A stretch of 43,761 nt of DNA. Origin: a virus. Below are positions 11,088-34,430 of the stretch, piece by piece. The notes beneath the pieces are model-generated. The model made no database searches. It saw nothing but the letters and a program-made list of their open reading frames with translations, and was not told the DNA's origin. Numbering within the stretch: position 1 is the stretch's first letter; every line of letters begins with the position of its first letter. The DNA lies in IMG/VR virus record IMGVR_UViG_3300034631_000071, positions 1-43,761 of that record, one strand, 5' to 3'. The translations under genes were made by a program, and so were the position numbers.

Positions 11088-11734
11088 CAGAAGATGCTCT
11101 TGAGGGCGCCCTTGATGCCCCCGCCGCCCGCGAACGCCCCGGTCAAGCCATCAAGGAAAGAGCCGGCGTTCTGCCAGTTAGCCGCGTTGATGCCGCCCTT
11201 CGTAAGGTAATTCGTCGCCTGCGCCTGCCCAATGTTGCCCACCAGCGACGTGACATTGTTGGTCGCGTTCATGCCGGCATTTGCAACCGAACCCGTCGCG
11301 CCGAGGCCTAGATTGGACAAATTGTAGAGATTGCTCAGCTGGCTATTATAAACAGCGCCCAGAGTGTCTGCACCAAAATCCGCTAACCCGCGCTGCGTAT
11401 CTCCTCCACGAAGACCACCGGTTGCCGATGCATTTTGAAGAAGCGCTTCTTCGCCATTGCGGTAGAGCGCACCATACAGTGGGTTACTTTTTAGCCGCTC
11501 CGCCAAGGCGAGAGGATCATCGCCATAGCCAGTAATCATGTTGGAGAGTTCGCCGATCGCCCCAACACCCGCCTGGGTGTAGGGCATGTAATCCTGGCGG
11601 GTCGTCTGATACTGCTGATTTTGCAGGTCGATGCCGCGGTTGTACGCAGCCGTCAGGGCATCAGTCGCCTTCTGCGACGCCTTCTTCTGGCTGCCGCCTC
11701 CGAACAATCCTGACACGAAACCGAAGAGACCCAC
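11087..11734 (-). CDS. Ejection protein, P22 gp7-like DNA transfer protein
   Basis: 215 residues with a GTG start preceded by AGGGGTG. The protein starts MGLFGFVSGLFGGGSQKKA, a hydrophobic Gly/Phe-rich head. A middle region QNQQYQTTRQDYMPYTQAGVGAIGELSNMITG and repeated NLYNLSNLGLGATGSVANAG stretches follow. This layout is characteristic of short podovirus DNA-transfer proteins. Its position directly downstream of the head-completion genes matches gp7. Bases 11300-11470 are less GC-rich than the surroundings. Confidence 0.7.
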   Translation of the reverse strand: MGLFGFVSGLFGGGSQKKASQKATDALTAAYNRGIDLQNQQYQTTRQDYMPYTQAGVGAIGELSNMITGYGDDPLALAERLKSNPLYGALYRNGEEALLQNASATGGLRGGDTQRGLADFGADTLGAVYNSQLSNLYNLSNLGLGATGSVANAGMNATNNVTSLVGNIGQAQATNYLTKGGINAANWQNAGSFLDGLTGAFAGGGGIKGALKSIF

Positions 11735-11828
11735 CTAGCACCCCTGAGGATGAGCGGGCGTGCGGCGCGCCACGGTACTCGCGCGCGCAGGATATCACTG
11801 CTAGGCAGCCGGTTCAGTTAGGCTTGTG
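11735..11828 (-). other. Intergenic leader upstream of the ejection genes
   Basis: This 94-base gap is one of only a few real gaps in the leftward unit. It begins with the 18-bp tandem motif (11818-11835) and contains an alternating CGCGCG run near 11790. I see no clear -35/-10 pair and no hairpin with a U-tract. A promoter or RNA-processing site for the ejection genes is plausible but unproven. Confidence 0.35.
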
Positions 11829-11835
11829 TTAGGCT
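11818..11835 (-). repeat. 18-bp tandem motif, copy 3 of 3
   Basis: TTAGGCTTGTGTTAGGCT (plus strand) is identical at 11818, 23187 and 26619. It consists of two TTAGGCT units with an 11-base period. In each place it overlaps the stop codon of a leftward gene and lies upstream of the next gene, here the gp7-like ejection gene. Confidence 0.85.
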
Positions 11836-12347
11836 ATGCGCACCTTGAGCGCCGATCCTGTCCGATAGACCCCACCCACCGGGACCCCGCCAGCAGCTGC
11901 CGCGGCGTCATCGGCAAAGCTCCCGATGGTCGCCAGCCTGGGTGCCTGGAGCGTCTTATTGCTCAGCACTTCGGGTTCCGATCGCGTCGCTACGGTTCCG
12001 CTTTGAGGAAGCACGAGGTTCACCGGGTTCTGCGCAGTCAGGTAGACAGGGAAGCCCCCTTGCACATGGGGCACCTCGTCGCTGACGTTCAGCTTTACCT
12101 TGTCCGCCGTGATCTCGATCGAGATGCCTGGCCCCACCTCAAGAACCCGCTCGCCAGTGAGTGTGTCGTTGGGCGATAGCGTGACGAAGGTGGCGTCCTG
12201 AAGCGCACTGGTAGCCGCAACGTTCTCTGCTCCCTGTTGCTGGGTTTCGCTGACAGCTTGAGCCTGCTGCTCGAACGCTGACACGAGACGGGGATTGCCC
12301 AGCGCCTGCGCCAGAAGCTCCCGGGGAAGGGTAGGCGCCGGCGTCAT
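11829..12347 (-). CDS. Virion protein at the tail-needle position (unknown)
   Basis: 172 residues from an ATG overlapping the gp10 stop (ATGA). The N-terminus is a Gln/Glu-rich helix (about 8-40). Beta-rich repeats follow (GERVLEVGPGISIEITADKVKLNVSDEVPHV, PVYLTAQNPVNLVLPQSG), which could form a trimeric beta-stalk. In P22 the next gene after gp10 encodes the tail needle gp26; the layout of helix then beta-rich tip is compatible, but sequence similarity to gp26 is not evident. Its stop codon lies inside the 18-bp tandem motif. Confidence 0.5.
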   Translation of the reverse strand: MTPAPTLPRELLAQALGNPRLVSAFEQQAQAVSETQQQGAENVAATSALQDATFVTLSPNDTLTGERVLEVGPGISIEITADKVKLNVSDEVPHVQGGFPVYLTAQNPVNLVLPQSGTVATRSEPEVLSNKTLQAPRLATIGSFADDAAAAAGGVPVGGVYRTGSALKVRIA

Positions 12348-13732
12348 ACCGCGAGGGGCCTCACCGTGGCCTCGCAAGCAGCGAAGCCGCCGAGCGCGCG
12401 GGAATACCCGCGGAACCGCAACCCCATGTACGACCGCATTCGCGCATGGGGCCGCCACTGGATGCGCTTGGTCCGCTCGCCCAGCTTTCCGAGCGTTACT
12501 GTGCGCTCTTCGCTGAAGAACCGACCGTCGCGCGTCATCGACATGAAGACCGCGCTGCCTTCCGTTTCGTCGCCACGGCCCGACATTCCGACGAGTTCGA
12601 TGCGATCGATGATCGCGCCTTTCGCCTGATTGTAGAGCAATCCGACGTCGAACATCCATTCCGTCGTCTCGTCGAAGTGCGAGCTGGTGTCGGTCGTCAG
12701 GATCGCGAGGGCAGGGGATTCCGTGTCGCCGACGATCGTCTTGCCGTAGACGTTCGTGGCGAAGCGGGGGCGGTACGGCTTCCCCGTTCCTGACCGGGCG
12801 CGATACCAAATGCTCTCGCCAGCCGCTTCGGAGGCCTTGGCGAGGAATATCCACGTCTCGCCTTCCCCGTGCACCAACAGGCGGTACTCGTCCCTTGCTA
12901 CCCGTCGCTCACAGACGATCGCTGCGGGGTTGCTCAGGCTCGACAGCCAGTCGTCTACCGCGCGAGTGCTGATCTTGTCTGCCGTGCCCTGCCCGGCGAC
13001 ATACACACCCAGCGCGTCGCCCCGAGCGGAGCCGACGAAGGCATAGGTCTTGCCGAACAGGGTCTTCGCCGTGGCAGAGACGCACCCGAAGGGGATAGTC
13101 GCCCCTTGGATCGTGCTGAACGGAAAGCCGGTGCCGCCTACATTCTGAAGCACCTGGATCGTATGCCTGCCGATCACATGAGCCTCCCCGCGGATGCGGA
13201 TCAACCCGGTGATCGGATCAGGGTCCGCCTCCGCTGACCCGTATTTGGTCGGCTTCACCTGATAGGCGTCGTCGAGTTCCGTGACGACGACGAACTTGCC
13301 GTCTGTGGACATGGTGTAGCCATCGATCCAGATGGCATCGACGCATCGCCCGAGATCCACGTCGAGAACCTGCGTAACGGTCGTGCCGTCGCAGTAGAAC
13401 AGCTTGCCATCGGCCCGGATGATGAGGCGGTCGAAGCTGTAATCCAGCCCAACGGCATCAGTGCCCGGGATCATGCCCAAGGTGGCCGTGGTGCCGTTCG
13501 CGTCCACGCGGACTAGCCCCAAACCCATCACACGATAGCAGACGTCGTTCCAGTTGATGCCGCCGCGGTCGATGCCAGGTCCGGCGCCGAACGGGATCGT
13601 CCCGGCCGCGGTGCGAAGCTGGCCGTTGCTGATCTTGCTGTTGACGATCACCGGCTCAAGGTTGACCGGATAGGCAAGCTCAAACTCCGCCTGCTCATTC
13701 GTGGTCACGCCAGAGACGAGGGATAGCTGCAT
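12344..13732 (-). CDS. Head-completion / tail hub protein, P22 gp10-like
   Basis: 462 residues, close to the 472 of P22 gp10. The start at 13732 is chosen for the TAATG overlap with the gp4-like gene. Diagnostic stretches are IDGYTMSTDGKFVVVTELDDAYQVKPTKYGSAEADPDP, IGRHTIQVLQNVGGTGFPFSTIQGATIPFGCVS and the beta-propeller-like rest. gp10 forms the hexameric tail hub below gp4 and receives the tailspikes and needle; it also keeps packaged DNA from leaking. Confidence 0.85.
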   Translation of the reverse strand: MQLSLVSGVTTNEQAEFELAYPVNLEPVIVNSKISNGQLRTAAGTIPFGAGPGIDRGGINWNDVCYRVMGLGLVRVDANGTTATLGMIPGTDAVGLDYSFDRLIIRADGKLFYCDGTTVTQVLDVDLGRCVDAIWIDGYTMSTDGKFVVVTELDDAYQVKPTKYGSAEADPDPITGLIRIRGEAHVIGRHTIQVLQNVGGTGFPFSTIQGATIPFGCVSATAKTLFGKTYAFVGSARGDALGVYVAGQGTADKISTRAVDDWLSSLSNPAAIVCERRVARDEYRLLVHGEGETWIFLAKASEAAGESIWYRARSGTGKPYRPRFATNVYGKTIVGDTESPALAILTTDTSSHFDETTEWMFDVGLLYNQAKGAIIDRIELVGMSGRGDETEGSAVFMSMTRDGRFFSEERTVTLGKLGERTKRIQWRPHARMRSYMGLRFRGYSRALGGFAACEATVRPLAV

Positions 13733-14154
13733 TACCAGCCCCTCCACCGCCAATGACCGCGCGGATAGCCGACAGGAACCTCCACCTCTGGCACCGTTGC
13801 GACTTCAGCCTGAAGCGTCGCTAAGCTCCGCGCCATGCTCGCCCGCTGCTCGGGTTGCAGTGAGGCACCGATACCGGGTGCTATCCGTAGCGCCAGATAC
13901 TGAGCGACCGCGTGGACGTACTTGTCATCCAGGCCGCTTGGCTCCTCGGCCTGTCCCACGCCATAGACCGGCTGGACGTAGCCTAGCTTGTTCCACGGCC
14001 ATTCCAGCATCAGCGCGTTGAGCTTGCGGAGCGCGATCGTCTGCTCCTCTGGCGTGCGGTCGAACTCATAGCCAGCCAGCCCGCAATCATCGAACGCAAT
14101 CTCGATGATGTCCCGCTTCGGACGCCCAGCGGGCAGGGATACGACGATAGACAT
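13732..14154 (-). CDS. Head-to-tail connector, P22 gp4-like
   Basis: 140 residues against 166 in P22. The start region IIEIAFDDCGLAGYEFDRTPEEQTIALRKLNALMLEWPW and the later LDDKYVHAVAQYLALRIAPGIG match the pattern of gp4-type packaged-DNA stabilisers, which bind under the portal and begin tail assembly. The C-terminus (YPRGHWRWRGW) is short and aromatic. P22 gp4 has also been reported to have muralytic activity, but I see no catalytic motif here. The gene is coupled to gp10 by TAATG. Confidence 0.75.
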   Translation of the reverse strand: MSIVVSLPAGRPKRDIIEIAFDDCGLAGYEFDRTPEEQTIALRKLNALMLEWPWNKLGYVQPVYGVGQAEEPSGLDDKYVHAVAQYLALRIAPGIGASLQPEQRASMARSLATLQAEVATVPEVEVPVGYPRGHWRWRGW

Positions 14155-14219
14155 CAGGCTGCCTCTCGACTCTTGGTGAACGATGCGTCAGCCTTCCCGA
14201 AAACAGAGGGGTTTAGCTG

Positions 14220-14840
14220 ATGCGATTCGGGCTGATGGCGGCTGCGGCTGCGTGCGTGGTGGCGGTGCCGGCTCAGGCGGCGAGTATCCAACGCATAGAG
14301 TTCAGCGGGATGGGCACGATCGACGCCGTCACCGATCCAGAAGGCGCATACGCAGGCACCGATGTTGGCGATAATATCATTTTGCGCGGCTCCATTGATT
14401 TTGGCCCTTCTCTCCGCCCGAACGAGGACTACACAGGCTTCTACAGGGCTGATCTGGTGTTTTATGGCGGTAGTGCCGGATTCTGGATTACTGGAGATGG
14501 TGCATCTGCTTCGAGTGGGTCGGGCTACGACGCTGACTTCATCGCTAATTTTGTGAACGGTGCTCTTGTCAACTTTAGTCTCGCGAACAACTATGAGCCG
14601 CGCACAGGAGATCTGACGCAGGCCAAGTTCATCATCAACACCTTCGCTGGCTACGGCATCCCCGAGCGTAGAGTGGCCGGGCGGTGGTCGATCACTTCCA
14701 CCTCCTACACGTACTCCTCGCTTGAGGGTGTTGGCCCCGGCGTTCCCGAGCCTTCGACGTGGGCGCTGCTCATTGTAGGTTTCGGCGCGATCGGCGGCAT
14801 GATGCGCAGAAAAGGCATGCGGGTAGTTCACGCAAAATAG
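14220..14840 (+). CDS. Secreted PEP-CTERM (PEPxxWA) protein, moron on the opposite strand
   Basis: 206 residues. A signal peptide occupies residues 1-21 (MRFGLMAAAAACVVAVPAQA, cleavage before ASIQ). A beta-rich central domain contains many Gly, Asp and Ser. The C-terminus VPEPSTWALLIVGFGAIGG followed by MMRRKGMR is a PEPxxWA-CTERM sorting signal: PEP motif, membrane segment, basic tail. Such proteins are exported and processed by a host exosortase. It is the only plus-strand gene inside the virion cluster. The start has GAGGGG eight bases upstream, and base composition at 14370-14600 is more AT-rich than its neighbours. All this suggests a transferred cargo gene expressed from the prophage. 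Confidence 0.85.
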   Translation: MRFGLMAAAAACVVAVPAQAASIQRIEFSGMGTIDAVTDPEGAYAGTDVGDNIILRGSIDFGPSLRPNEDYTGFYRADLVFYGGSAGFWITGDGASASSGSGYDADFIANFVNGALVNFSLANNYEPRTGDLTQAKFIINTFAGYGIPERRVAGRWSITSTSYTYSSLEGVGPGVPEPSTWALLIVGFGAIGGMMRRKGMRVVHAK

Positions 14841-17800
14841 CTCGGGAACGTCGTTCGCATATTCTTGGCGAATGCAGCGAGTGGGCCGTTGAGCGTGTGC
14901 GAGCCGTCCCCAGGGAAGGTTCCCGCGCCATAAGTTCCGGTGCCATCCGTCTTGGCAATCGTTCCGTTCTCAGTGTCGTAGTAGCGCTTGCCGTAGTCCA
15001 AGAACGCAGGCCAGTTTGCCGCCGTCGCGAGGGCAGGGATGACCTTCATCGCCACATAATGGCTGAACATCGTGTTCATCCACAGGTGGCGATACTTTAC
15101 TCGCTGATCCGCCCACGTCGCCCGCGGATAACCTTCCTCCGTGACCGGGCTGCTGGTCCATTCACCGCGACCGAGAAATGCGGCGGGATACGGGTCGGTC
15201 GCGCGGTCAACGTTCGCCTGAGTAATCGTCGTGATCTGGCGCTGCTCCGCTAACCAGCCCTCCGCCTGCGACGCCGCCAGCACCCGGGCGTTGCCGGTGA
15301 CGATCGCCGCGACGGCCAGCGTGATCTTGCGGCCCTGCGACGTGCCACCAAGGCCGCTTCCCGTGCTGCGGCGCCCAGCCTCGTACATACCGGTGTACTG
15401 GATACCGATGCGGCTGAGAGCGCGCGCCAACGCCTGCTTCTGCGCGGTCGTCGTGGACGACAAGCACATCAGGAGAACGGCAGCGCCAGTCCAGTAGGCG
15501 TATTCCTTCCCGTAGTTTTCCTCGTGCGCGCGCGGCGACGTGTTGCGTGCCGTGCCGCGGTTGAGGTGCCACGTCGTATGCAGCAGCTTCAGCTTGTTGT
15601 AGACCTGGAAAAACTGCGGCGCGCCCAAGCCGGTCGGCGACAGATTCGGGAACGCCGACAGGTCAAGGCTGGCGTTATCCGCAGGAATGAACAAGTCCAC
15701 CGCCGGGAGCGCCGTGGGCGGACGGAACAGCAAAGTTCCGCTGGCCGGCAGCGTCGGCACCACCACTAGGTCAGAGACGGACGCAGCGGTGAACTGAGCG
15801 TCCCGTCGCACCACATCCATGGAACGCTGCTTCGTCAGGATGCCTTGCGTGATCGTTACCGGCGTTCCGGTCCTGCCGGGGTCGATGTTGAGCGCGGCGC
15901 TGTACGGCAATTGGCTACTGTCATACTGCGTTGCCCAACTGTCGAACGGCTGCTGCGAGCCATCATAGGGCGCGTTGCCCGATGGCGCGATATCTACGGC
16001 GGCTTGGCTACCGACGTTCAGGCCCATGCCATCGGTCCACTGCATCCCCGTGGTACCGGCCGCATACGGGGGATCGGCTGCGCTATCCCCAGGATAGTTG
16101 CGGTCCCGCTGGCGGGCTGGGGGAGACGCCGTGATGCCGACTCCGCTGGGGTTCGCGACCATCCAGCCGCCGTCCTCCAGCTGCATCGCCGTGAGCGCCG
16201 AAGCAGGCGTCCACGTGATATCGTTCTCGGTCATGGAAGTAACGCTGCGCTGCGTCGGGTCGCCGATGACGATCGTGTTGCTGCTGAAATCGCTGGCTGC
16301 GTAGGTGCCCGCAACCTTCGTGAGCGTAACCGCGGTTTCCAACGTGCCCTTGTTGACCAGCCCCGCGTCGCGCGCTGCCACGTCGCCGTGGAAGAACAGC
16401 TTGGGCGTCAGCGTTACCGGATTGCCGCTCATGTCGGTGAGGGTCACGGTCCCGGTGGTCGGGTTCAGGTTCTCGATGTTGAAGGCCGCGCGGTTGGCCG
16501 GAAGGTCGAAGTCGATCTTCGGACATTCCGCCGACGACCCCCACCACATCCAGTCGAACCCGGTGCGCTCGCTGATGGCGAGACTTGCGGTTGCCGTCTG
16601 CACGCCGAAAAAGCGGTTGTCAGGAATGACCACGGCCGTTCCCATTGTTTGTGAAACCTGCGGCTCGCCATCCAGCCATCCGCGAACACGGTCGCCCACA
16701 GCAGTCCCGTGACCGTTCGTCATATTCATCTGCACGATGGCTTGCTGGAACTTGCCGACCTGCGCCACTCCCAACGTGGTGCTGTAGGAATTGTTGTTCG
16801 CGCGGAACGAGACGTTACCCGTCGTCGTGTTGATCCGCCATTCGGGGGGGATGGACGTTCCATCGCTCGCCAGCAGGCCAAAGCGCGAACGCGATGTGGC
16901 GGGAATGTCGCGGACGGAGAAGAACGCGACGGCGATGACCTGATCGACCGTTCCCGCAGGGCGCGACGGCTGAAGATTGGCGTTCGCCGAGCGCGCGATG
17001 GCGTTGGTGGAGGTGACAGGGAAATAGTCCTGCGTCGTGGTGATCGACGGGAACGGGCCGGAGACTTGCCTCGTGTAGCCCGTCCGGTCGTGGACCAGGG
17101 AATATGTGCCCGTCGTGTCGCCCAGCACGCCAGGGCCGTTGACCCCGACGACGATGGCGGTGCCGTCCTCATTCACATCAAGGAAGCCAGCGTCGTATGC
17201 TGCGCCTGTCATCGCGACCAAGCTATCAGCGAACGAGCCGCTGACCGGCGCCACGACATCGCCGGGCTGCATCGTCGCCTTTCGGCTAGTCGTGCCCACG
17301 GTCAGTGCCCCCGCGGGGGTGGACGCGGCAGCAGGAGTGCCACTGACCTGCGCCGACGCGGCACTATCCCCCACCGCGTTCGTCGCAATTCCCTTGGAGT
17401 AGTAGGTCGTCCCGTTCGTCAGGCCGGTGTCCACGTAGGGGAACGTCGGGTTAGTCGCGATCAGGTTGCCCGAGCTAGGCGGGAACCCGCTCGTTGTGCT
17501 GCGATACAGCTTGCGAGAGGTGATCGCAGACCCGCCGTTGGCACCATCGGTAAAGGTGATGCTGTTCTGCGCAGCGCCGGGGGTCGCAGCCAGCGTAGGC
17601 GCAGCCGGTGCCGTCGCAGCGGCAGTCACCGTCACCGCCGCGCTGGTCGTTACGGTTGAGCCACCGGGTCCAGTGGCCGTCACTTCCAGAACGAGTGAGC
17701 CAGCCGATGACGGCGAGACGGTCGTTCCGGTACCTATCTGAGTACCCGATAGCAGCCAGCGCCGGGCATATGAGTTGGCGTTCGACGCCACCCCGTCACT

Positions 17801-18292
17801 GGCAGTGAAGGTCTGCCCGGTCGTTCCGCTCGTGGGGCTAATCGAGGGCTGCGTCGTGAAGACGGGAGCGGGGATGGCCGAGACGGTCACTCCCGTCGAG
17901 GTCGCCGTCACTGTGCCGCCAGGGCCGGTGAGCGTCACACGAGAAGTCAGCGTGCCCGCCGCAGCCGAAACGTAGCTCGCCCCGTTGGCGCCGCTGATCG
18001 CAGTCCCGTTCAAGAGCCACTGTATCGCCGCCGACGTGGCATTGGCCGCGACATAGGCGACGGTGAAGGACTGCCCCACCTGACCGCTACCGGGGCTGAC
18101 GACGGGCGCGGACGTGAAGGAGGGCAGGGGCGCCGGAGTAGGCGTTCCGCCCTCAAGGAGCGAGATGCGGTTGGCGAACGACGCCTGCAATGTCTCGATC
18201 GCAGCGAACCGGCTCTCCAGCGACGCGACACGCTTTGCCAGCTGGCCGATCTGGCCCTCATAGTCGGGCTTGCCGAGGTGGTTAATGCTCAT
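14828..18292 (-). CDS. Giant receptor-binding protein with Ig/FN3 repeats and alpha-toroid C-terminus
   Basis: 1154 residues. Order: coiled coil (about 8-48, LAKRVASLESRFAAIETLQASFANRISLLEG), Pro-rich linker, two Ig-like repeats (about 55-225), a fibronectin type III-like domain (about 230-320, SRKLYRSTTSG, YVDTGLTNGTTYY), a LamG-like or sandwich region (about 440-560), and a helical C-terminus (about 900-1154). In that last part GGTSQGRKITLAVAAIVTGN recalls alpha/alpha-toroid polysaccharide lyases. It is probably a trimeric fibre that binds or cuts host polysaccharide; enzyme activity is inference. Its last 13 bases overlap the convergent PEP-CTERM gene. Confidence 0.65.
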   Translation of the reverse strand: MSINHLGKPDYEGQIGQLAKRVASLESRFAAIETLQASFANRISLLEGGTPTPAPLPSFTSAPVVSPGSGQVGQSFTVAYVAANATSAAIQWLLNGTAISGANGASYVSAAAGTLTSRVTLTGPGGTVTATSTGVTVSAIPAPVFTTQPSISPTSGTTGQTFTASDGVASNANSYARRWLLSGTQIGTGTTVSPSSAGSLVLEVTATGPGGSTVTTSAAVTVTAAATAPAAPTLAATPGAAQNSITFTDGANGGSAITSRKLYRSTTSGFPPSSGNLIATNPTFPYVDTGLTNGTTYYSKGIATNAVGDSAASAQVSGTPAAASTPAGALTVGTTSRKATMQPGDVVAPVSGSFADSLVAMTGAAYDAGFLDVNEDGTAIVVGVNGPGVLGDTTGTYSLVHDRTGYTRQVSGPFPSITTTQDYFPVTSTNAIARSANANLQPSRPAGTVDQVIAVAFFSVRDIPATSRSRFGLLASDGTSIPPEWRINTTTGNVSFRANNNSYSTTLGVAQVGKFQQAIVQMNMTNGHGTAVGDRVRGWLDGEPQVSQTMGTAVVIPDNRFFGVQTATASLAISERTGFDWMWWGSSAECPKIDFDLPANRAAFNIENLNPTTGTVTLTDMSGNPVTLTPKLFFHGDVAARDAGLVNKGTLETAVTLTKVAGTYAASDFSSNTIVIGDPTQRSVTSMTENDITWTPASALTAMQLEDGGWMVANPSGVGITASPPARQRDRNYPGDSAADPPYAAGTTGMQWTDGMGLNVGSQAAVDIAPSGNAPYDGSQQPFDSWATQYDSSQLPYSAALNIDPGRTGTPVTITQGILTKQRSMDVVRRDAQFTAASVSDLVVVPTLPASGTLLFRPPTALPAVDLFIPADNASLDLSAFPNLSPTGLGAPQFFQVYNKLKLLHTTWHLNRGTARNTSPRAHEENYGKEYAYWTGAAVLLMCLSSTTTAQKQALARALSRIGIQYTGMYEAGRRSTGSGLGGTSQGRKITLAVAAIVTGNARVLAASQAEGWLAEQRQITTITQANVDRATDPYPAAFLGRGEWTSSPVTEEGYPRATWADQRVKYRHLWMNTMFSHYVAMKVIPALATAANWPAFLDYGKRYYDTENGTIAKTDGTGTYGAGTFPGDGSHTLNGPLAAFAKNMRTTFPSYFA

Positions 18293-19878
18293 ACTGCAAG
18301 CCCCACGCCGACCGCCGCTGCGATTTCAGCCTCCGCGATCTGCACTTCGGTCGTCAGGCTGCCGACGTTGAACAGCCGGAACTCGTCCAGCGCGCCGGTG
18401 ACCGAATTGACGTAACCGTTGTTTGCCACGGCGTAGACCGCGCCGACACTAAACTCCTCCAGCGTCATGGCAGGAGCGTCGCAAGCGGCGTTCACCGCGA
18501 TGTTCACGCCGTTCACGCGAAGCGTAGCCGTCTGACCCGAGAAGATCCACGTCACGACGTACCACTGATCCGCCGGGAACGCCCCGGCGAGGCCAGGGGT
18601 CGCCACCTGTGTGTTGTTCTGCGTGCGAGAGTACAGCCCGTCTGCGCCAACGTAGCCCGCCCGAATATAGTCGGAGGTAGTGCTCTTGCGCGCCCAGCCG
18701 AAAAACGCCCGCGATCCGCTGTCGGCCGTGCCCCTGCGGATGGCGGCAACGATCGTGATCGGGTTGTCATCGCCGGTCGCCGTCGCAACGAACTTGGCCG
18801 AAGCAGAGGTGAGGTATTTACTCCCACCCGCGAAGTTCAGGACCGGCCGACCAGTGAGGCTGTCCGTCGCAAGCACCGGTGCTCCGGCGGGTGCGATCAA
18901 GGCCACACCAGGCTGCTTGTCGGCATCTTGATAGCGGCTGACTGCGGAGCCGGTCGTAGAGGGCGTGGTGCCACCGGTATCGGAGAAGGTGCTTCCCGGT
19001 ACGCTCGGACTGAAGCGAGCAATGAGCGACGCCGGGCGCCCGGGTCGCAAGAGCGCCCAGGTGCGGGCGCCGCGCTCGACCGTGCTGGCCGCGCTGAAAT
19101 GGACATTGTCTGATCCGGTCGCGAGACTGTCGCTGCTGAACAGCTGAGTGTTCGGCGTGCGGTCATAGAACGCGGCCTGAGCGGCACGGACGGTCGCGCG
19201 CTGCGTCCAAATAGCGTCCTCCAGCCGCGCGACGACAAACGTGGCGGTGGAGCCGCCCAGGATGTTCGCGCGAAACCAGGTGTGGAAGGCGTCGAGCGCG
19301 GTGCCGTAAGTCGCAGCTGCAGTCGCGTTGTTGCCGTCGTTCTGCCCCTGATCCCATAGAGCGCCGAGGTAGTTGATCGTCCGGCTTCCAAGTGCGGCGA
19401 TGGCCGCGTCGCGGTCGCCCTTCAGAACTGACGCCCACTCATTCGGGAGCGTGGGGTCCCAAATGCCGCGGTCCACCGATCGCGCCGCCTCTTGTAGAGC
19501 GCTGGTGGGGCGACCGAGCTTCACGATGCAGAGCGGGCGACTGTCGCCGGAAGCGGCGTAGGCACGCGCGATCTCTGCCTCCGGTCCGAACGACGCCGCA
19601 CCGCGGGTCATGCCGTTGCGGGGCGCTGAGTTGAGACCCGTCTGATACTGCTCGAACGCGGGCGGAGTAAGGTCGCTGTTCCAGATGAACACGTTGGCCG
19701 GGGCTGCCGCTACCGAAGCGGGCACAGGCTCGCTGTTGGTGTTGCTGGTGACAGCCTGCGATTGGCCGGCGAGGAAGAACATATTAACCGCCCCGGCAGG
19801 GACAGGATCAACTATGGTCACAGCCCCCGCGCCAATCGCCCCCGGCGCCAGAACCTGAAGGCCGGAAAGCCCGATCAT
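18289..19878 (-). CDS. SGNH-type carbohydrate esterase with LamG-like domain
   Basis: 529 residues from an ATG overlapping the upstream stop (ATGA, 19875-19878). FFLAGQSQA (Ser40) is the nucleophile block of the sialate-O-acetylesterase/SGNH family. LWDQGQND (about 175-181) is the oxyanion block, and DNVH (257-260) supplies the Asp-x-x-His. Residues about 290-529 form a concanavalin-like LamG sandwich (VVTWIFSGQTATLRVNGVNI). Phage tail esterases of this class strip acetyl groups from capsule or O-antigen. It is coupled to the giant fibre gene that follows. Confidence 0.75.
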   Translation of the reverse strand: MIGLSGLQVLAPGAIGAGAVTIVDPVPAGAVNMFFLAGQSQAVTSNTNSEPVPASVAAAPANVFIWNSDLTPPAFEQYQTGLNSAPRNGMTRGAASFGPEAEIARAYAASGDSRPLCIVKLGRPTSALQEAARSVDRGIWDPTLPNEWASVLKGDRDAAIAALGSRTINYLGALWDQGQNDGNNATAAATYGTALDAFHTWFRANILGGSTATFVVARLEDAIWTQRATVRAAQAAFYDRTPNTQLFSSDSLATGSDNVHFSAASTVERGARTWALLRPGRPASLIARFSPSVPGSTFSDTGGTTPSTTGSAVSRYQDADKQPGVALIAPAGAPVLATDSLTGRPVLNFAGGSKYLTSASAKFVATATGDDNPITIVAAIRRGTADSGSRAFFGWARKSTTSDYIRAGYVGADGLYSRTQNNTQVATPGLAGAFPADQWYVVTWIFSGQTATLRVNGVNIAVNAACDAPAMTLEEFSVGAVYAVANNGYVNSVTGALDEFRLFNVGSLTTEVQIAEAEIAAAVGVGLAV

Positions 19879-20306
19879 CCGCCCAGCCCGCCGAACGCCA
19901 CCCATTCGGTAGCCGACCGCTTCAGCAGCTGCGCCACGTTCCACTGCCCCTTGCTTACCAGCGAGGTCAGCGCGGTGTTAATCGTGATGCCGGTGCCAGC
20001 CGCGATCGTGAAGGCGCCCGCTCCCTCCTGAATGACGGACACCACCGCCCCCACAGGCCAGTAGCCCGTCAGGCCCACCGTCAGCGTCTGCGGGCTGGCG
20101 CTGTTCATGCGGTAAACGAGCGCGTTGCGCGTGATGCTCGACGCAGCAGTGGTCACGATGCGCGCCACCTGTTGGTAGTCGGACGCCAGCTCGATCTGGC
20201 TGTCAGCGTTGCCCGTGTCCTTGAGGAGCTGCTCCTCGGAAGGAGGCCCCCAGAACAAGGTGTTGACCGGCTGGCCATTGTAGGGGCGGGTGAGACGAAC
20301 AGGCAT
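19875..20306 (-). CDS. Tail-associated beta-rich protein
   Basis: 143 residues. The N-terminus looks extended (MPVRLTRPYNGQPVNTLFWGPPSEEQLL). The C-terminal half, with GYWPVGAVVSVIQEGAGAFTIAAGTGITI, WNVAQLLKRSATEWVAFGGL, is a small beta domain that recurs at the ends of phage tail and fibre proteins. An AGGGGG site lies ahead of the ATG. It is probably a connector for the esterase and fibre that follow. No specific family is assigned. Confidence 0.55.
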   Translation of the reverse strand: MPVRLTRPYNGQPVNTLFWGPPSEEQLLKDTGNADSQIELASDYQQVARIVTTAASSITRNALVYRMNSASPQTLTVGLTGYWPVGAVVSVIQEGAGAFTIAAGTGITINTALTSLVSKGQWNVAQLLKRSATEWVAFGGLGG

Positions 20307-20318
20307 CAGGCGGACCCC

Positions 20319-20861
20319 CTAGGAGCTTGCTACGTCGCTGCGAGCGACGGCGATGACAGAAATGGTCGCGCCAGCCGCGCTTCCCCCGAAGACGTTGTAC
20401 CCCGTCAGCTGGGCGAAGACCGTGTTGACGCCGGAAACGACGCCGGAAACGAGCGTGAGCAATCCGGACAGCGGGTTGATCGTCGGAAGCATCTGCGCGC
20501 GCCGCCCTTGGATCGTTACGCCAGTGTACTGGCCTTGCGCGTTCGTCACCCAAGACAGACCGCGGAGGACTAGCGGCTGGCTGCCTGTCGCAGCGTCCGT
20601 CTCGGTGAGATTGAGGCCCGGCTTGTTGGTGAAGGCGCGGGTGAAGGCGATTGCCGCCTCGCCGTTGCTGTCCAGCGTCGCGTAGGTCGTGCTGGTCAGC
20701 CGCGGGTGCTGGTGGTCCACCAGCGCATATTCCTGCGTCTGCGACCCCGTTGCGGCGCCGGTCTTCTCGCTCAACGGAGGCGTCGAAGCCGGGCGCGGCA
20801 TCATGCCAGCGACCAACGTCTGGATTTCAGCGAGGGTAGCGCCTCCTGCCAGTTCCGCCAC
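20319..20861 (-). CDS. Tail-fibre-like virion protein with DHQHP motif
   Basis: 180 residues, GTG start with GGAG upstream. Residues about 45-55 read EYALVDHQHPRL, a His-rich D-H-x-H motif common in phage tail and collar proteins, where it can bind metal along a trimer axis. Beta-rich repeats and a C-terminal Ser/Gly/Ala sandwich (TGYNVFGGSAAGATISVIAVAR) follow. Likely part of the surface-directed insert between coat and gp4. Partner and receptor are unknown. Confidence 0.55.
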   Translation of the reverse strand: MAELAGGATLAEIQTLVAGMMPRPASTPPLSEKTGAATGSQTQEYALVDHQHPRLTSTTYATLDSNGEAAIAFTRAFTNKPGLNLTETDAATGSQPLVLRGLSWVTNAQGQYTGVTIQGRRAQMLPTINPLSGLLTLVSGVVSGVNTVFAQLTGYNVFGGSAAGATISVIAVARSDVASS

Positions 20862-20863
20862 GG

Positions 20864-21256
20864 CTAGAACTCCGTCGCGGTGTACGGCTGCGACGCCGTA
20901 CCGCTGACCACAGTGACGGCGCGGTTCGTGCGGACGTTGATCGTCGCACCCGCTGCCAGGGTGTACGTGCCAGGCGAGCCGATCGAAGCCGCACCGCCGA
21001 TCTCGTTGATCCCCATCGGGTTTGCGCTGATGTTCTGGATGTTCAGGCCACGACGCGCGGTGTTCACAGGTGCCAGCGTCGTTGCCTGACCCGCCGTTGA
21101 GCTGGTAGTGCCGCTCCGGTCCGTGCCGGCGGGCAGGGGGCCGGTCTGGGTGTAGTTCGGGTCGGTGGGCGTGCCGGCGGTGAAGTCCTGACCCGAAATC
21201 GCCGTGCCGCGAACGAACAGCGGATCGCCAGCCGCATTACCGATGCCAGAGCGCAT
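20864..21256 (-). CDS. Small beta-rich virion protein, possible decoration or tail connector
   Basis: 130 residues. The N-terminus is low-complexity (Gly/Thr/Pro, with TPTDPNYTQTGPLPAGTDRSGTTSS). The C-terminal half (RRGLNIQNISANPMGINEIGG, GTYTLAAGATINVRTNRAVTVVSG) is a small beta-barrel of the type found in head decoration or fibre-base proteins. TTGGAG lies ten bases before the ATG. It is the first gene after the terminator-like hairpin at 21283-21315. Confidence 0.5.
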   Translation of the reverse strand: MRSGIGNAAGDPLFVRGTAISGQDFTAGTPTDPNYTQTGPLPAGTDRSGTTSSTAGQATTLAPVNTARRGLNIQNISANPMGINEIGGAASIGSPGTYTLAAGATINVRTNRAVTVVSGTASQPYTATEF

Positions 21257-21282
21257 CCGCCGTTACTCCAATGAGGGAAGAA

Positions 21283-21315
21283 CCGGCGCGGGGAAGAGGG
21301 GCCACCCCGCGCCGG
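21283..21315 (-). terminator. Terminator-like hairpin between coat block and fibre block
   Basis: An 11-bp perfect stem (CCGGCGCGGGG at 21283-21293 with its complement at 21305-21315) encloses an 11-base loop. On the leftward transcript it is followed by TTCTTCCCTC, only a weak U-tract. It could attenuate transcription between abundant head proteins and the less needed fibre proteins. It could also act as an RNA-stability element at the 3' end of the gene at 21323. Confidence 0.55.
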
Positions 21316-21322
21316 CAGAGCA

Positions 21323-21778
21323 TCACAGCTTCGTGACCGCCGTGACGTCGTTCGTGTAATCAGGACCGCCGCCCGGAAGGTCTTCCTTCTTGAGCTTCAG
21401 GCGCTTCATCATCGCCTTGACGTACGGGGTGCGGTTCTGGCCGTTGCGCTCCAGCGCGAGCAGGCCGTAGACCTTCTCGTCAGGGATCGCGCCCTTCTCC
21501 TGGTCCTTCTCGGAGATGGCGTCCTCGAAGGACTCCACGCCAAGCTCCAGATTGTGGGCGTAGGCCTGGATCTCGTCCGAGCCATGCCACTGCTGGGTCG
21601 GCGCCTCGCCCGGGTTCTGGCCGTCCGTCAGCTGGCGGTGAGTATCCTTCGCCGCTTCCTTGACGTCCTCGATCGCGCCTTCCTTGCGGGCCTTGACCTT
21701 CTCGGCGTCGGTCAGCGCGATACCTTCAGGCGCGTTGTCCTTCAGGTTGTCCTCGGCGTTCTGCTTCTTCGCGGTCAT
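21323..21778 (-). CDS. Small charged head-associated protein (unknown)
   Basis: 151 residues from the ATG at 21778, chosen for GAGGAGG eight bases upstream. The N-terminal half is highly charged and probably coiled or disordered (AKKQNAEDNLKDNAPEGIALTDAEKVKARKEG). The C-terminal half contains PYVKAMMKRLKLKKEDLPGGGPDYTNDV, which resembles the end of small phage structural proteins placed after coat. Position suggests a role in head assembly or decoration. Family not recognised. Confidence 0.5.
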   Translation of the reverse strand: MTAKKQNAEDNLKDNAPEGIALTDAEKVKARKEGAIEDVKEAAKDTHRQLTDGQNPGEAPTQQWHGSDEIQAYAHNLELGVESFEDAISEKDQEKGAIPDEKVYGLLALERNGQNRTPYVKAMMKRLKLKKEDLPGGGPDYTNDVTAVTKL

Positions 21779-21789
21779 GGTCAGCCTCC

Positions 21790-23055
21790 TCACGCCTGTC
21801 CGAACATCATCGCGCCGGCCATCTGCGGGTTGAGCAGGGCAGTGCCGAAGTCGATGTCCCAGCGAGCCTTCACGCTCAGGTCGTTGATCGCGCCCTGGCG
21901 GGTGTACTGGATCGCGATGCCGTTGCTGGTCGTCGCCCGAAGGGTCTGCCAGCCGTCCTGCGGATCGACCGTGAAGCTGCCCGGGATGAGCAGCAGCGCG
22001 CCGCGCACAAAGAACGGGTTCACCTCCGCGGTCACGGTGTTCAGCCAGGTGAGCGTCGCGCCGTTGGCCGGCGCTGCGGTGACGTTCTGATACTCGCGCC
22101 CGCCGATCGTGTTGCCCGTATTCGGGATGATCGCCGGGTAGACGCGGATCGTGTTCGCGGCCGGCTTGCCGACGACGCGGAACGTCTGAAGCTGGCCGGT
22201 GTCCGTCTTCTCGATGTTGTGCAGCGAGTTGACACCCGCGATCGTGAAGGCGTCGCCCACCTTGATGCCCGCATAATTCGCGGAGGTCACCACGACGTCG
22301 GTGTAGCGATTGTCCTTGTTGACCTGCTCGCCGTCCGCCTGCGTGTAGAACGCGCTCGGCTCGGTGTACTGATTGGCGCCGTTGACGGTCGTCGCGCCAC
22401 CCGTCGCCGCAGCGAGACGGATCGGGGCGTCGTCCGAATAGACGTCGAAGTTGGCGATGCGCGAGGCGACGAGGCCCGACGTGTAAGCCTTGCTGGAGCG
22501 GTCGGTCGCTTCCGAGCGGCCCGCCAGGTTCGACGCCATACCGACACCGGTGCGCAGGCCCACCATGGCCACACGATCACCGACCGGAACGCCGACCTCG
22601 GAAAACGCGGCGTTGGCAATCGCGACGTCATCGAAGCCCGTGGCGGCGACGGTGCGCTTCACGAAGACCGAGCCTTCCAGCGCGACGCGATTGCGCAGCG
22701 CGATGTTGACGTCCGACGCCAGCCGCTCCTTGGCCGCATCGGCGTACATCGACAGCGCGTGCTTGTTGCGCAGGTTCTTCGCCGACAGCGTCTTCGGCAC
22801 CGACTTGTGGAAGCCGACCTGCGCCGGCACCGCCAGTTCGGTCAGGCCGTCGAAGTTGCTGGTCTGATCGAAGCCGTCGTAGCTCGCACCGATCATCGGC
22901 GCGTGAACCCAGAAGCGGTCGCGCGTGTGGACCATCTCTTCGGGCAAAAGCGGCTCATACTTGCGGGCGAGGGCGCCGTACGACAGGAAGGCGTCGAAGC
23001 CCTCCACCATGTCGTCGAACATCACCCGCTCTTCCTTCGTGAAGGACGTGGGCAT
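21790..23055 (-). CDS. Major capsid (coat) protein, P22 gp5-like
   Basis: 421 residues against 430 in P22. The start at 23055 (MPTSFTKEE) has GGAG eight bases upstream; an ATG at 23106 lies inside a hairpin and would add 17 odd residues. Diagnostic stretches include the N-arm FDDMVEGFDAFLSYGALA, RDRFWVHAPMIGASYDG, VPAQVGFHKSVPKTLSAKNLRN and the C-terminal GFSVDP-like region (GSFTVDPQDGWQTLRATTSNGIAIQYTRQ). It forms an HK97-fold capsid with an inserted I-domain in the middle. Confidence 0.9.
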   Translation of the reverse strand: MPTSFTKEERVMFDDMVEGFDAFLSYGALARKYEPLLPEEMVHTRDRFWVHAPMIGASYDGFDQTSNFDGLTELAVPAQVGFHKSVPKTLSAKNLRNKHALSMYADAAKERLASDVNIALRNRVALEGSVFVKRTVAATGFDDVAIANAAFSEVGVPVGDRVAMVGLRTGVGMASNLAGRSEATDRSSKAYTSGLVASRIANFDVYSDDAPIRLAAATGGATTVNGANQYTEPSAFYTQADGEQVNKDNRYTDVVVTSANYAGIKVGDAFTIAGVNSLHNIEKTDTGQLQTFRVVGKPAANTIRVYPAIIPNTGNTIGGREYQNVTAAPANGATLTWLNTVTAEVNPFFVRGALLLIPGSFTVDPQDGWQTLRATTSNGIAIQYTRQGAINDLSVKARWDIDFGTALLNPQMAGAMMFGQA

Positions 23056-23066
23056 CAGGAAAACTC

Positions 23067-23120
23067 CAGGTGAGACGAGTTCACAGCAGGTTCTCCCCGC
23101 TGGCATCCTCGTCTCACCTG
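23067..23120 (-). promoter_or_regulatory. 13-bp hairpin in the 5' leader of the coat gene
   Basis: CAGGTGAGACGAG (23067-23079) pairs perfectly with CTCGTCTCACCTG (23108-23120) around a 28-base loop; CAGC/GCTG can form a small inner stem. On the transcript the hairpin ends two to three bases before the GGAG of the coat gene, without masking it. A U-tract is lacking, so termination is unlikely. A 5' mRNA stabiliser or translational enhancer for the most abundant virion protein is the likelier reading. Confidence 0.65.
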
Positions 23121-23186
23121 TCCCGGGCGGTGGCCCCCGAATGCGGATGCGCGGCTAATCTACGCGCACCACTGGCCTTACCGCTA

Positions 23187-23204
23187 TTAGGCTTGTGTTA
23201 GGCT
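23187..23204 (-). repeat. 18-bp tandem motif, copy 2 of 3
   Basis: Identical to the copies at 11818 and 26619. It contains the TAA stop of the scaffold gene and opens the 142-base leader of the coat gene (23056-23197), which also holds the 13-bp hairpin. The rest of that leader shows no clear promoter. Confidence 0.85.
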
Positions 23205-24022
23205 TGCTTGAGACTGCGCCGATAGTTGATGAGCGCAGTCCGATCGCCCGTCTTGTCGGCTTCCTTCTCCAGCCGCTCCAGTTCCTTGTCGGAACCCTGC
23301 CGAGCAACACCGCCACGAACGACGGCCTGAGGTGCTGGCGGCTTGGCACGCTTCTTCATGGTCAGGCTGGCCCCCATTCGCCCTACGGCAGCGGCGAGCT
23401 TCACCACCTGCCGGGGATCGGACATGTCGTAGCCGGCAAGCTCGGTCAGGCGACCAGGGTTCTTGCCAGCGGCGTAGATGAACAGCGCGGGATCGGGCGC
23501 AATGTCGGCGATGAGCGCCTGATGCGCAGGCGTCAGCACGTCGAATGCCTGCCGCTCCACCTCATCCTTGTCCCGGTAGGGCAGGGCGGCGCGCTTCGCC
23601 TGGTAATTCTGCTCCACCTGACGCCACGTCTGCGCCTCACGGTCCTTTGCGGCCTCGATCCGCAAGTCCTGCTGGCGCTTAGCTTCCTTGCGCTCCTCGT
23701 ACTCGTCCAGCGCCTTGTCATGCGCCTCACTGTCGAAGTCAAAGTCCTCCAGCTTGGGCCGGGCACCGACGACGATTGGCTCTTCCTGCTGGCTGCGGGA
23801 CTGCTCGGCGACGCGCTTCTGGAGCTGGCGGTTCTCGCGGCGCAGGTGCTTGACGAGGTCGGTTTCCTGCTCCTCGGTAGGAGGTTCGCCGTCGAACGAA
23901 GGATATTCCTCCTCGTCTTCCGGCTGCTCCTGCTGCTCGTCGGGCTGCTCGGCCTCGTCCTCCATCTCGTCGGTGAGTTCCAGAACGTCGTCGTCTTGAA
24001 TGTCGTCAGGGTTGGTCGCCAT
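23198..24022 (-). CDS. Scaffolding protein, P22 gp8-like
   Basis: 274 residues, near the 303 of P22. The acidic N-terminus (LELTDEMEDEAEQPDEQQEQPEDEEE) is followed by long charged helices (about 50-150). A basic helical C-terminus (TMKKRAKPP, then KELERLEKEADKTGDRTALINYRRSLKQA) resembles the coat-binding helix-turn-helix of scaffolding proteins. It directs coat assembly and is then released. Lying between portal and coat is the expected place. Confidence 0.8.
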   Translation of the reverse strand: MATNPDDIQDDDVLELTDEMEDEAEQPDEQQEQPEDEEEYPSFDGEPPTEEQETDLVKHLRRENRQLQKRVAEQSRSQQEEPIVVGARPKLEDFDFDSEAHDKALDEYEERKEAKRQQDLRIEAAKDREAQTWRQVEQNYQAKRAALPYRDKDEVERQAFDVLTPAHQALIADIAPDPALFIYAAGKNPGRLTELAGYDMSDPRQVVKLAAAVGRMGASLTMKKRAKPPAPQAVVRGGVARQGSDKELERLEKEADKTGDRTALINYRRSLKQA

Positions 24023-24025
24023 GGA

Positions 24026-24325
24026 TCAGCCCTCCACGCGAGGACGGCCGGGACCGCGCTTCGGCTCGGGCGTGGCGAGGGTGGCAGCCCAGCCATCTTC
24101 CAGCGCCGCCAGTTCCTCGTCAGCGTCGTTGACGACCAGCGTCTGTGCGTCGTGGATACCACCGATCTTGATCGGCTCGCCCTGGTGGTGATGCTCGTTA
24201 TGAGGGATCTCGCCCGCCTTGTAGAGCATCTTGGGATAGTCGGTGACCAGCCCGCCTTCCATCGTGGTGCGCACGTAGTCGTAGAACGCCTTTTCGGTCA
24301 CGTCCTGACCGTTGAGCTTCGGCAT
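24026..24325 (-). CDS. Small protein with AT-hook-like C-terminus
   Basis: 99 residues. The first part (MPKLNGQDVTEKAFYDYVRTTMEGGLVTDYPKMLYKAGE) looks like a compact helical domain. The end, PEPKRGPGRPRVEG, contains an RGPGRPR AT-hook-like core able to sit in the minor groove. It lies between portal and scaffold. A structural or packaging accessory is likely from position. I cannot name the family. Confidence 0.55.
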   Translation of the reverse strand: MPKLNGQDVTEKAFYDYVRTTMEGGLVTDYPKMLYKAGEIPHNEHHHQGEPIKIGGIHDAQTLVVNDADEELAALEDGWAATLATPEPKRGPGRPRVEG

Positions 24326-24362
24326 TGGTCACTCCCTCTCGCCCATGCGCCGGGCGGCTGCG

Positions 24363-26582
24363 TCAAGCGGCTCCCTGCCGCTCCATCTGTGCGATCTCCG
24401 CCCCGGTCCGGAGGCGTCGGTCGTCAATTCCGTCACGAAGGTGTTCGGCCTGGGCGCGCTTCAAGTCCGCATTGGCGAACCGCTCCTGCACCTGTGCCTC
24501 GTCGTTGGCCGCTTGCAGCCCCGTAGGCGCCTCAGGAGCGCTCTCAGGGCCCCCAACGGCCTGCGCCTGCGCCGTCTTCAGCAATGCGGACGCACGGCGC
24601 TCCTCAGCCTGTGCGGCAGCCTGTACGCCGATGGCCTGAGCCTGTGCCGCGTCCTTGGCTGCACCAGCCTCCAGCGCCTTCGCCTGGCCCATGGCCACCA
24701 GCGCCGCAGGATCGGGCTGCTGGCTCTGCGCCTGCTCGGCCATCTCCTGCTGCTCGTCCTCGGTCGGCTCAAACAACCCGAGAGCAAGGCCGCGGCGACG
24801 GTTCCACTTCTGGATCTCCTCCAACCCCTCGCCGTCCATGTTCGCGATGGCCGTGATCCACGCTGCCTGCGCGCCTTGCTGGTCCTGAGCAGCCGTAGCA
24901 ATCTCAGCCATGCCGAGCATCTGCTTGACGGTGCGGTCCCGGCGAGTAGCGGTCGCCTCGGTGACGCTGGCAATCACCTTGTACCGGCCCGTCGCGAAGT
25001 CGTTGCGGGTCTTCAACAGGTCGCCATCGAGATAATCCTCGCCAAGGGTCGCAACGCCATCGTCACCATCCTCGGTCATCGTCTCGACCTCGCGGCCTTC
25101 CTCGACGTACACCTCGCAGCTCATGCCAAGATAGATTTCGCCCTCGCGCTGGACGGACTGCCGCATGTTGTCGAGCAGCACGCCGGTCTTGGCGTCCACC
25201 CGGGCAGCAGCGATGTCCATGGCTTCCGCCGAGGTGTTCGCCCGGACCTCCTCCGCCCCGTCCTGATCGTCCTCGGTGACGTCGCGGTTGGCGATCTCCA
25301 ACAGCGCAGCGAGCGTCTGAGGAACAGCCGGTGCTTCGACCTTGTCGATGCGACCCGCTACGGCAATCGAGCCATCCTCGTTCCGCAGCGGGTTCACCAG
25401 CGCATAGGGATGGCGATCCACATTACCGCGCGCCCACATCGCAGCCAGATTGTCGGGCATCTGCTCCGGCGCGAAGATCGGCCGCTCGTACGGCGCCATC
25501 GCCTGTATCTCGGCGAGGTTCGACACCATCGCCGCATACAGCCGGGCCGCGTCGATCTTGCTGGAGGGCAGCACGCCGACGAACCACTCCACGCCATCGA
25601 CATAGTCGCGGTTGCCGTACACGGGCACGATCGGGATGTTACCGCCGGGGGTGAGGCCCTGATCCTCCAGCACCTTGACGCCGGACAGCACGTACTTGTG
25701 GCAGCGACGGCGTTTGATGCGGCGGACCTTGGCAACCCAGCCTTTCGCCTCTAGCTCGTCGCGGTCCTCCGCCTCCAGCTCGCGCTCCCAATGGCGCTGC
25801 TCTTCGTCAGGGATCAGCGCGTGGGTGTAGATCAGCAGGCGCTCGTTGCGCTCCTCGATCTCGTAATACTCGGCCACCAGCACCTGGTCAGGGCGATACC
25901 AGTCACCCCACCAAAGCGGGCGGCCCTCAGGCCAGCCCACCTCTTGTTCGTCGCCATATTCGTCCTTGAACGCGTCGGGCGAATGGCCGGTCAGCACGAA
26001 GGCGAAGCGCGCGTCCGACTTGTCGTAGAGCTTGCTGTCGGGATCGAAGAACACCGATTGGTCAGCATCCACGATCGTCAGGCCGGGGTTGATCCGCTGC
26101 TCATCATTGTCCTTGTCGAGCGGGTCAGCCCATTCCGTCGTGAGCCGGTACGCGCCAAACCCGCCGCGCGATGCCTCGCTGAAGGCGTTGTCCCGGGCCT
26201 GCTGCGACTTGAAGAAATACCCGTCCGCCCGGTGCATCCCGTCAAGCGTATCAGCCGTCTCGTTATCGCTGTTCCCGCCGGCCGGGCGGAAGTCGGGAAC
26301 GATCCGGTTCTGGCGGTAGTCGTTCTCGGCCTTGCGGATCGCCTTGCCGAGCTTGTGGATGTCGAGCTTGACGGCCTTGTCGAAGCTCTCGCCGTACTCG
26401 CCTTCCCAGATAGCGCCAGGAATGATCGAGATACGGCGGGCGGCGAAGCTGTAGGTGCGGACGAGAAGCTGAGGCGCGACCGCAGCCTCGAAGCGCTTCA
26501 TGGCCCGCTTGTGGACCTCGCGCAGCTTCTCGTTGTCGTCATCAGGACGCGTATCTTCCAATGCGGCGTCGTGATCGAGCAT
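24363..26582 (-). CDS. Portal protein, P22 gp1-like
   Basis: 739 residues against 725 in P22. The start at the ATG 26582 is tentative; a GTG at 26591 would add three residues and neither has a clear ribosome site. Features include RRISIIPGAIWEGEYGE, DADQSVFFDPDSKLYDKSDARF, WYRPDQVLVAEYYEI, PIVPVYGNRDYVDGVEWFVGVL and a long Gln/Ala-rich helical C-terminus (about 590-739) that would form the barrel. Twelve copies form the DNA channel at one capsid vertex and dock terminase and gp4. Confidence 0.9.
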   Translation of the reverse strand: MLDHDAALEDTRPDDDNEKLREVHKRAMKRFEAAVAPQLLVRTYSFAARRISIIPGAIWEGEYGESFDKAVKLDIHKLGKAIRKAENDYRQNRIVPDFRPAGGNSDNETADTLDGMHRADGYFFKSQQARDNAFSEASRGGFGAYRLTTEWADPLDKDNDEQRINPGLTIVDADQSVFFDPDSKLYDKSDARFAFVLTGHSPDAFKDEYGDEQEVGWPEGRPLWWGDWYRPDQVLVAEYYEIEERNERLLIYTHALIPDEEQRHWERELEAEDRDELEAKGWVAKVRRIKRRRCHKYVLSGVKVLEDQGLTPGGNIPIVPVYGNRDYVDGVEWFVGVLPSSKIDAARLYAAMVSNLAEIQAMAPYERPIFAPEQMPDNLAAMWARGNVDRHPYALVNPLRNEDGSIAVAGRIDKVEAPAVPQTLAALLEIANRDVTEDDQDGAEEVRANTSAEAMDIAAARVDAKTGVLLDNMRQSVQREGEIYLGMSCEVYVEEGREVETMTEDGDDGVATLGEDYLDGDLLKTRNDFATGRYKVIASVTEATATRRDRTVKQMLGMAEIATAAQDQQGAQAAWITAIANMDGEGLEEIQKWNRRRGLALGLFEPTEDEQQEMAEQAQSQQPDPAALVAMGQAKALEAGAAKDAAQAQAIGVQAAAQAEERRASALLKTAQAQAVGGPESAPEAPTGLQAANDEAQVQERFANADLKRAQAEHLRDGIDDRRLRTGAEIAQMERQGAA

Positions 26583-26618
26583 CGGCGACACTGTACCGGA
26601 ACGACATAAGCGGCGCTG

Positions 26619-26636
26619 TTAGGCTTGTGTTAGGCT
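26619..26636 (-). repeat. 18-bp tandem motif, copy 1 of 3
   Basis: Identical to the copies at 11818 and 23187. Here it overlaps the TAG stop of the large terminase gene (26635-26637) and lies about 37 bases before the portal start. The intergenic space is only about 50 bases, so if the motif regulates transcription the promoter must be very compact. Confidence 0.85.
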
Positions 26637-34369: not shown

Positions 34370-34376
34370 GATCCCA

Positions 34377-34405: not shown

Positions 34406-34413
34406 GCGGTTTT

Positions 34414-34430
34414 GTACCCGACGCCGGTTC
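34414..34430. promoter_or_regulatory. Operator O2 (imperfect copy)
   Basis: GTACCCGACGCCGGTTC keeps the left half-site and spacing but has one mismatch in the right half (GGTTC for GGTAC). Its centre is 34 bases from that of O1, near three helical turns, which would allow cooperative repressor binding. Confidence 0.6.

Follow-up and report, generated by a model that had tools for sequence, protein, structure and literature searches.

Repeated 18-bp words as putative activator sites at the late promoters of a P22-like phage

Known P22-like phages have one late promoter and rely on antitermination, the textbook enterobacterial model. The Caulobacter cell-cycle regulator GcrA works through sigma70. 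It acts at methylated GANTC sites (PMC7987155), and phages carrying the CtrA box, defined as TTAA-N7-TTAA, are known in Alphaproteobacteria (PMC9437464). In phage P2, late control is exerted in trans by a small phage protein at several late promoters (PMC3931495). The best reading of the sequence analysed here is that late control in a P22-like phage would work like that of P2 Ogr, outside the Ogr family. As with P2 Ogr and P4 Delta, a small trans-acting phage protein (here a candidate) would serve all virion operons from one regulator gene through a common site. Ogr, however, has a CX2CX22CX4C zinc motif and TGT-N12-ACA sites, neither of which was found; the candidate is instead a Myb/GcrA-like helix-turn-helix (HTH) protein with one cysteine, and its putative sites are tandem half-sites whose words differ by lineage. 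Like lambda Q and P22 gp23, the candidate has its gene directly ahead of the late operon and would switch on all virion genes, but here there are three to five promoters, each with its own -10. A Q antiterminator was rejected, there being no Q-like family match in the ORFs scanned against PHROGs (a diverged Q could escape such a scan), and so were T7-like RNA polymerase promoters, as no T7-like single-subunit RNA polymerase was found in the ORFs scanned, all large ones included.

The 18-bp repeat at late-gene junctions

The window, by which we mean the whole stretch of 43,761 nucleotides, is one virus record (IMGVR_UViG_3300034631_000071) and represents a P22-like temperate podovirus. P22-type terminase, portal, scaffold, coat, head-closure and gp7 genes occupy its minus strand, and CI-like repressor, recombination and integrase genes its plus strand. 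Megablast returned no close phages. By portal, the nearest named relative is Sphingopyxis phage VSN-002 (54%), described in PMC9302152; the nearest named relatives infect Sphingomonadaceae and, going by them, so would the window phage. The left end of the window resembles a tRNA 3' end and adjoins a gene at 88-1053 for a queuine tRNA-ribosyltransferase-like protein (phrog_887, 1e-32), and the integrase reaches the right end; the two ends are likely an attachment-site region.

The word TTAGGCTTGTGTTAGGCT occurs exactly three times on the two strands of the window, at 11818-11835, 23187-23204 and 26619-26636, against 0.01 copies expected in shuffled sequence, and no further match with up to three mismatches was found on either strand. 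Since the late genes lie on the minus strand, it is to be read as AGCCTAACACAAGCCTAA, that is, as two AGCCTAA units 11 bp apart (AGCCTAA-N4-AGCCTAA), of which the second is longer in two of the three copies (AGCCTAAC). A preliminary description of this DNA had reported the three exact copies and, within them, two TTAGGCT units with an 11-base period, and had placed each copy over a stop codon and ahead of portal, coat or ejection genes; these observations all held, the last of them through gene profiles (portal, P22-type coat, gp7-type). At the terminase/portal junction, the copy at 26619..26636 covers two of the three bases of the TAG stop (26635-26637) of terL (26635..27851, PHROG 3717, 2e-60). 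At the scaffold/coat junction, the copy at 23187..23204 overlaps the TAA stop (23198-23200) of the scaffolding protein gene (23198..24022, PHROG 648, 7e-26) and lies ahead of the P22-type coat ORF (21790..23106, Pfam P22_CoatProtein, 9e-113). The copy at 11818..11835 overlaps the TAA stop (11829-11831) of an upstream ORF and precedes the P22 gp7-type DNA ejection gene (11087..11734; PHROG 598, 4e-35; Pfam P22_gp7, 3e-14). All of these features are on the minus strand. Across phages, 49 of 64 copies likewise run over the stop codon of an open frame that is 60 codons or longer, which makes the overlap an effect of packing.

Each copy is followed on the minus strand by a -10-like hexamer at a nearly constant distance: TACAGT (26590..26595) 23 nt after the portal copy, TAGATT (23157..23162) 24 nt after the coat copy and TATCCT (11789..11794) 23 nt after the gp7 copy. 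When a range of offsets was allowed, 0 of 500 shuffled versions of the downstream sequences reached the observed -10 score. A search of the minus strand from 10000 to 29000 gave no sigma70-type promoter with both a -35 and a -10. Because the -10 stands at a fixed spacing after the copies and no good -35 match accompanies it, the layout is that of an activator-dependent (-35-less) sigma70 late promoter, and the copies very probably mark promoters of this type. The preliminary description had offered a late-gene activator site as one of its ideas, which gains support from the fixed spacing upstream of the -10 and from late-operon junctions conserved in relatives. New beyond that description are the constantly spaced -10 after each copy and the recurrence of the same arrangement, with other words, in relatives.

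The true coat start is probably the ATG at 23055, since the match to the coat profile sets in only at residue 18. In the coat leader (23067-23120), just before this ATG, stands a 13-bp perfect inverted repeat (23067-23079 / 23108-23120).

Conserved positions of putative promoters and lineage-specific words

Relatives were collected in two scans, the first a portal-alignment scan giving 80 viral contigs and the second, with another alignment, giving 53 new loci, in 19 of which an automatic rule picked out a repeated word. The relatives were found by alignment queries; single-protein and two-row portal queries of viral and genome contigs gave no matches. The metagenomic relatives are mostly incomplete contigs. 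Across the two independent scans about 35 relatives have a detectable repeat, with promoters at the same junctions, namely before portal, scaffold or coat, gp7 and often terminase, although the window, contrary to several relatives, has no copy before terS. The exact 18-mer was found in no other viral contig; different words stand at the same junctions, and nearly every relative or small clade has its own. Within a phage, a best 18-mer match of at least 16/18 was reached in 9 of 33 comparisons of the portal and gp7 junctions and 7 of 59 of the portal and coat junctions, as against 6 of 850 between phages.

Both sets of relatives show the -10 alignment, at a score that none of 300 controls matched. 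Pooled over 19 phages, the -10 score was 90.6 against 57.7±1.8 in shuffles, and the first-set score was 88.7 against 53.4±1.7 at random late-strand positions. In the validation set (19 phages of the second scan) it was 91.6 against 58.2±1.9, a value again reached by 0/300 controls.

VSN-002 (L004 in our set) has GTAATTTGCCCAAATG at the three corresponding junctions and at terS. Its 20-mer GCGTAATTTGCCCAAATGAA is exact before the coat and ejection genes, with diverged copies before portal and terS, and at all four sites a TAnnnn hexamer begins 18 nt past the 20-mer. Other words are GACACCAAAAGACACC (L008), CAAAAGTCCAAAAGCC (L012), GTAAACCGGTAAAATG (L032), CGTAAAGCCGTCAAAT (L050) and GATAAGGTTCAA (L022), and L088, a contig binned as Verrucomicrobia, has a copy ahead of each of five transcription units. 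Where the HTH protein introduced below resembles that of the window, the site is again a tandem, its units 10-11 bp apart but made of other bases: GCCCAAC in L009 and L010, GACACC in L008, GACAAA at 10 bp in L106 and L108, and ATCCCCCA in L041. A prediction of GCCYAA tandems in L106 and L108, whose HTH proteins are closest to the window's, failed: the units are the GACAAA just given, with the layout kept.

Some relatives carry palindromes. In L037 (portal, coat and gp7 junctions) and L089 (portal and coat junctions), the latter a prophage of Sphingomonas sp. SRS2, the palindromic word TGCCTAAAAAnTAGGCA replaces the tandem and the geometry is different; since the word is palindromic and no HTH-family gene adjoins terS in L037, a different regulator class is likely there. 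L009 has the palindrome CGGGTAT-N4-ATACCCG at its coat and gp7 junctions together with its GCCCAAC tandem at the portal junction, and possibly two regulators in one phage.

The portal start codon follows its -10 closely. The likely ATG of the window portal gene (24363..26582, minus strand; PHROG 156, E=5e-91) is at 26582, 7 nt past TACAGT, and the GTG at 26591 chosen by the ORF finder falls inside the hexamer. In 16 of 17 second-set phages, 6-8 nt separate the portal -10 from the first ATG or GTG downstream, and nearly every phage of the first set has it within 4-10 nt; over both sets, the portal start codon usually stands 6-10 nt past the hexamer. This suggests that the portal mRNA may be leaderless: if the hexamers are -10 elements, portal mRNAs would start at or beside the start codon. 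The predicted mRNA leader downstream of the scaffold promoter has, in ten relatives (L012, L014, L015, L021, L022, L023, L029, L031, L034 and L050), a conserved 6-bp hairpin with compensatory changes; all 60 of 60 cells are paired, three pairs are altered on both sides and the covariation exceeds that of all 500 shuffles. A separate hairpin is present in the coat leader of the window.

The candidate activator and competing explanations

Just upstream of the probable terS (27830..28144, minus strand; assigned by position, phrog_8771, 2e-14) lies a gene for an 87-aa protein (28137-28400, minus strand) with an N-terminal helical part and a C-terminal Myb/GcrA-like HTH. Its HTH part matches PHROG 323 (phrog_323, E=1.7e-8), a D5-like transcriptional regulator whose function is known by annotation only, over about 53 of 319 profile positions; the same PHROG also matches 13 of 25 proteins of the HTH family. 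Against PDB, the family profile matches c-Myb (1.9e-8) better than GcrA (5yiu, 9e-4; 7ye1, 4e-3). The AlphaFold (AF2) model of the protein has five helices (pLDDT 88) and gave no significant Foldseek match. Where a word-bearing relative has enough upstream sequence, an HMM nearly always places a family member about 1.5-2.8 kb ahead of portal. In L088 the gene is about 5 kb before portal, with a word copy at its 3' end, and in VSN-002 a 111-aa homologue, absent from the annotation of the public record, lies upstream of terS (1951-2286, minus strand). The HMM did not detect the gene in the repeat-bearing L127, L139 and L141. In L022 it is seemingly split over two frames (about 2078-2384), perhaps by a sequencing error or a real frameshift.

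If this protein reads the sites, word and DNA-binding domain should change together. With portal identity controlled, word similarity was related to similarity of the HTH DNA-binding domain with a partial r of 0.17 (p=0.02, n=27), and in a smaller set with a partial r of 0.23 (p=0.011, n=16); the recognition helix alone gave r 0.165 (p 0.036). In one partial comparison, the DNA-binding domain tracked the word better than the N-terminal part did. Overall relatedness was a stronger predictor of the word (partial r=0.36, n=27), and because relatedness tracks the word more strongly, the link between HTH and word is statistically modest; word similarity thus appears to follow the DNA-binding domain weakly beyond overall relatedness. 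VSN-002 and L030, with portals 62% identical, have a common word and the same recognition helix ITETAA; L030 and L032, with portals 79% identical, differ in both word and recognition helix. On position, conservation and this modest correlation, we think it reasonably likely that the protein at 28137-28400 is the activator.

The promoters may instead be activator-dependent but served by another phage protein, such as the LexA-type winged-helix protein at 32152-32481 (profile match) or an unrecognised ORF, with the HTH protein a passenger or packaging-related. Further HTH proteins are indeed encoded in the window, terminase small subunits and their neighbours often bind DNA, and the correlation just described is weak once relatedness is controlled. 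However, the HTH gene occupies the position of a late regulator, immediately before the late operon, and the presence of its family in nearly all word-bearing relatives, together with the closer tracking of the word by its DNA-binding domain in that single comparison, leaves this alternative a minor possibility beside the candidate activator.

A temperate phage with a CI-like S24 repressor (34295-35035, plus strand; profile match) and repeats at several promoters could also use them as operators, through which the HTH protein or the prophage repressor would silence the late promoters in the lysogen. Operators usually overlap the -35 or -10, whereas the sites here lie further upstream than the -35 region, with constant spacing, in promoters that have no -35 match, which is activator geometry. 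There are no copies near early or repressor promoters either, the sole early-strand match with up to five mismatches being at 38759. We therefore regard silencing as improbable.

It is more improbable still that the sites are read by a regulator of the host, be it CtrA, GcrA or another response regulator, which would couple late expression to the host cell cycle. The preliminary description had raised a CtrA or other cell-cycle site, and the 18-mer does resemble TTAA-N7-TTAA in its spacing; as in the CtrA-box phages (PMC9437464), the site is tandem with a spacing of about one helical turn and the hosts are alphaproteobacterial. Unlike in those phages, TTAA-N7-TTAA is absent from the whole window even with one mismatch, and the sites are at late virion operons only. 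Of 401 genomes from the family of Sphingomonas sp. SRS2, only 2 contain the tandem AGCCTAA-N4-AGCCTAA, fewer than for a reversed control, so that the many host copies that would have told against a phage site were not found; a word nearly absent from the host family belongs to the phage. Every phage, moreover, has a different word, and the words of relatives are unlike the CtrA box. CtrA as the reader was excluded on these grounds, and other host regulons as the origin of the word were rejected on its near-absence from the 401 genomes. The candidate shares a Myb-like DNA-binding domain with GcrA, but its HTH is C-terminal and AGCCTAACACAAGCCTAA contains no GANTC.

Least probable is an RNA-processing or termination element at gene ends, another idea of the preliminary description to which the stop-codon overlap of all three copies had lent itself: that overlap reflects packing, no Rfam match and no minus-strand terminator-like site was found at the copies, and RNA processing is unlikely because the copies lie 23-24 nt before a -10, at constant spacing, and the words vary between phages whose genes are conserved.

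A proposed late-control circuit and its implications

We consider it likely overall that the late promoters lack a -35 and are driven by the HTH protein, with the 18-mers as activator sites. The three 18-mers would be putative binding sites at three such promoters, their tandem half-sites AGCCTAA(C) falling at about -53 to -36 and, being 11 bp apart, on the same face of the DNA. A host-sigma70-type -10 hexamer would follow 23-24 nt past each site, with transcription predicted to start about 7 nt after it, yielding three mRNAs: a leaderless one for portal, one with a leader for coat, and one for ejection, tail and lysis. The activator would be made from the preceding operon and act in trans at all three promoters. 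In relatives, promoter positions would have been kept while activator and sites changed together, resulting in a private word in almost every lineage. The repeats, spacing, -10 alignment, conserved junctions and conserved HTH gene are read from the sequence, and from them we infer activation, the identity of the activator and the start sites.

On our best reading, the HTH family, its place in P22-like phages and the lineage-wise rewriting of words at fixed promoter positions are new; the literature searched, which leaves out most subscription journals, held no description of such a late-switch system. More tentatively, and with rather less than even confidence, we suggest that a distributed late-activator circuit has replaced single-promoter antitermination in a widespread P22-like phage family of sphingomonads and their relatives, its code rewritten by lineage as three to five sites change together, with a large, naturally occurring collection of mutually orthogonal activator-promoter pairs, and leaderless portal mRNAs, as the outcome.

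To conclude, the arrangement described here indicates a late-gene switch for a large and little-studied P22-like group, where only enterobacterial antitermination has been the textbook case. As VSN-002 is in cultivation, the absence of a portal mRNA leader predicted here can be tested in it directly. With diverged small proteins and matching sites in each genome, these phages offer a data set on how a Myb/GcrA-like HTH reads DNA and on the joint change of one regulator and several dispersed sites, and the activator-promoter pairs are possible orthogonal gene switches in Alphaproteobacteria. If the circuit is as proposed, its private code may protect a prophage from activation when a related phage infects.
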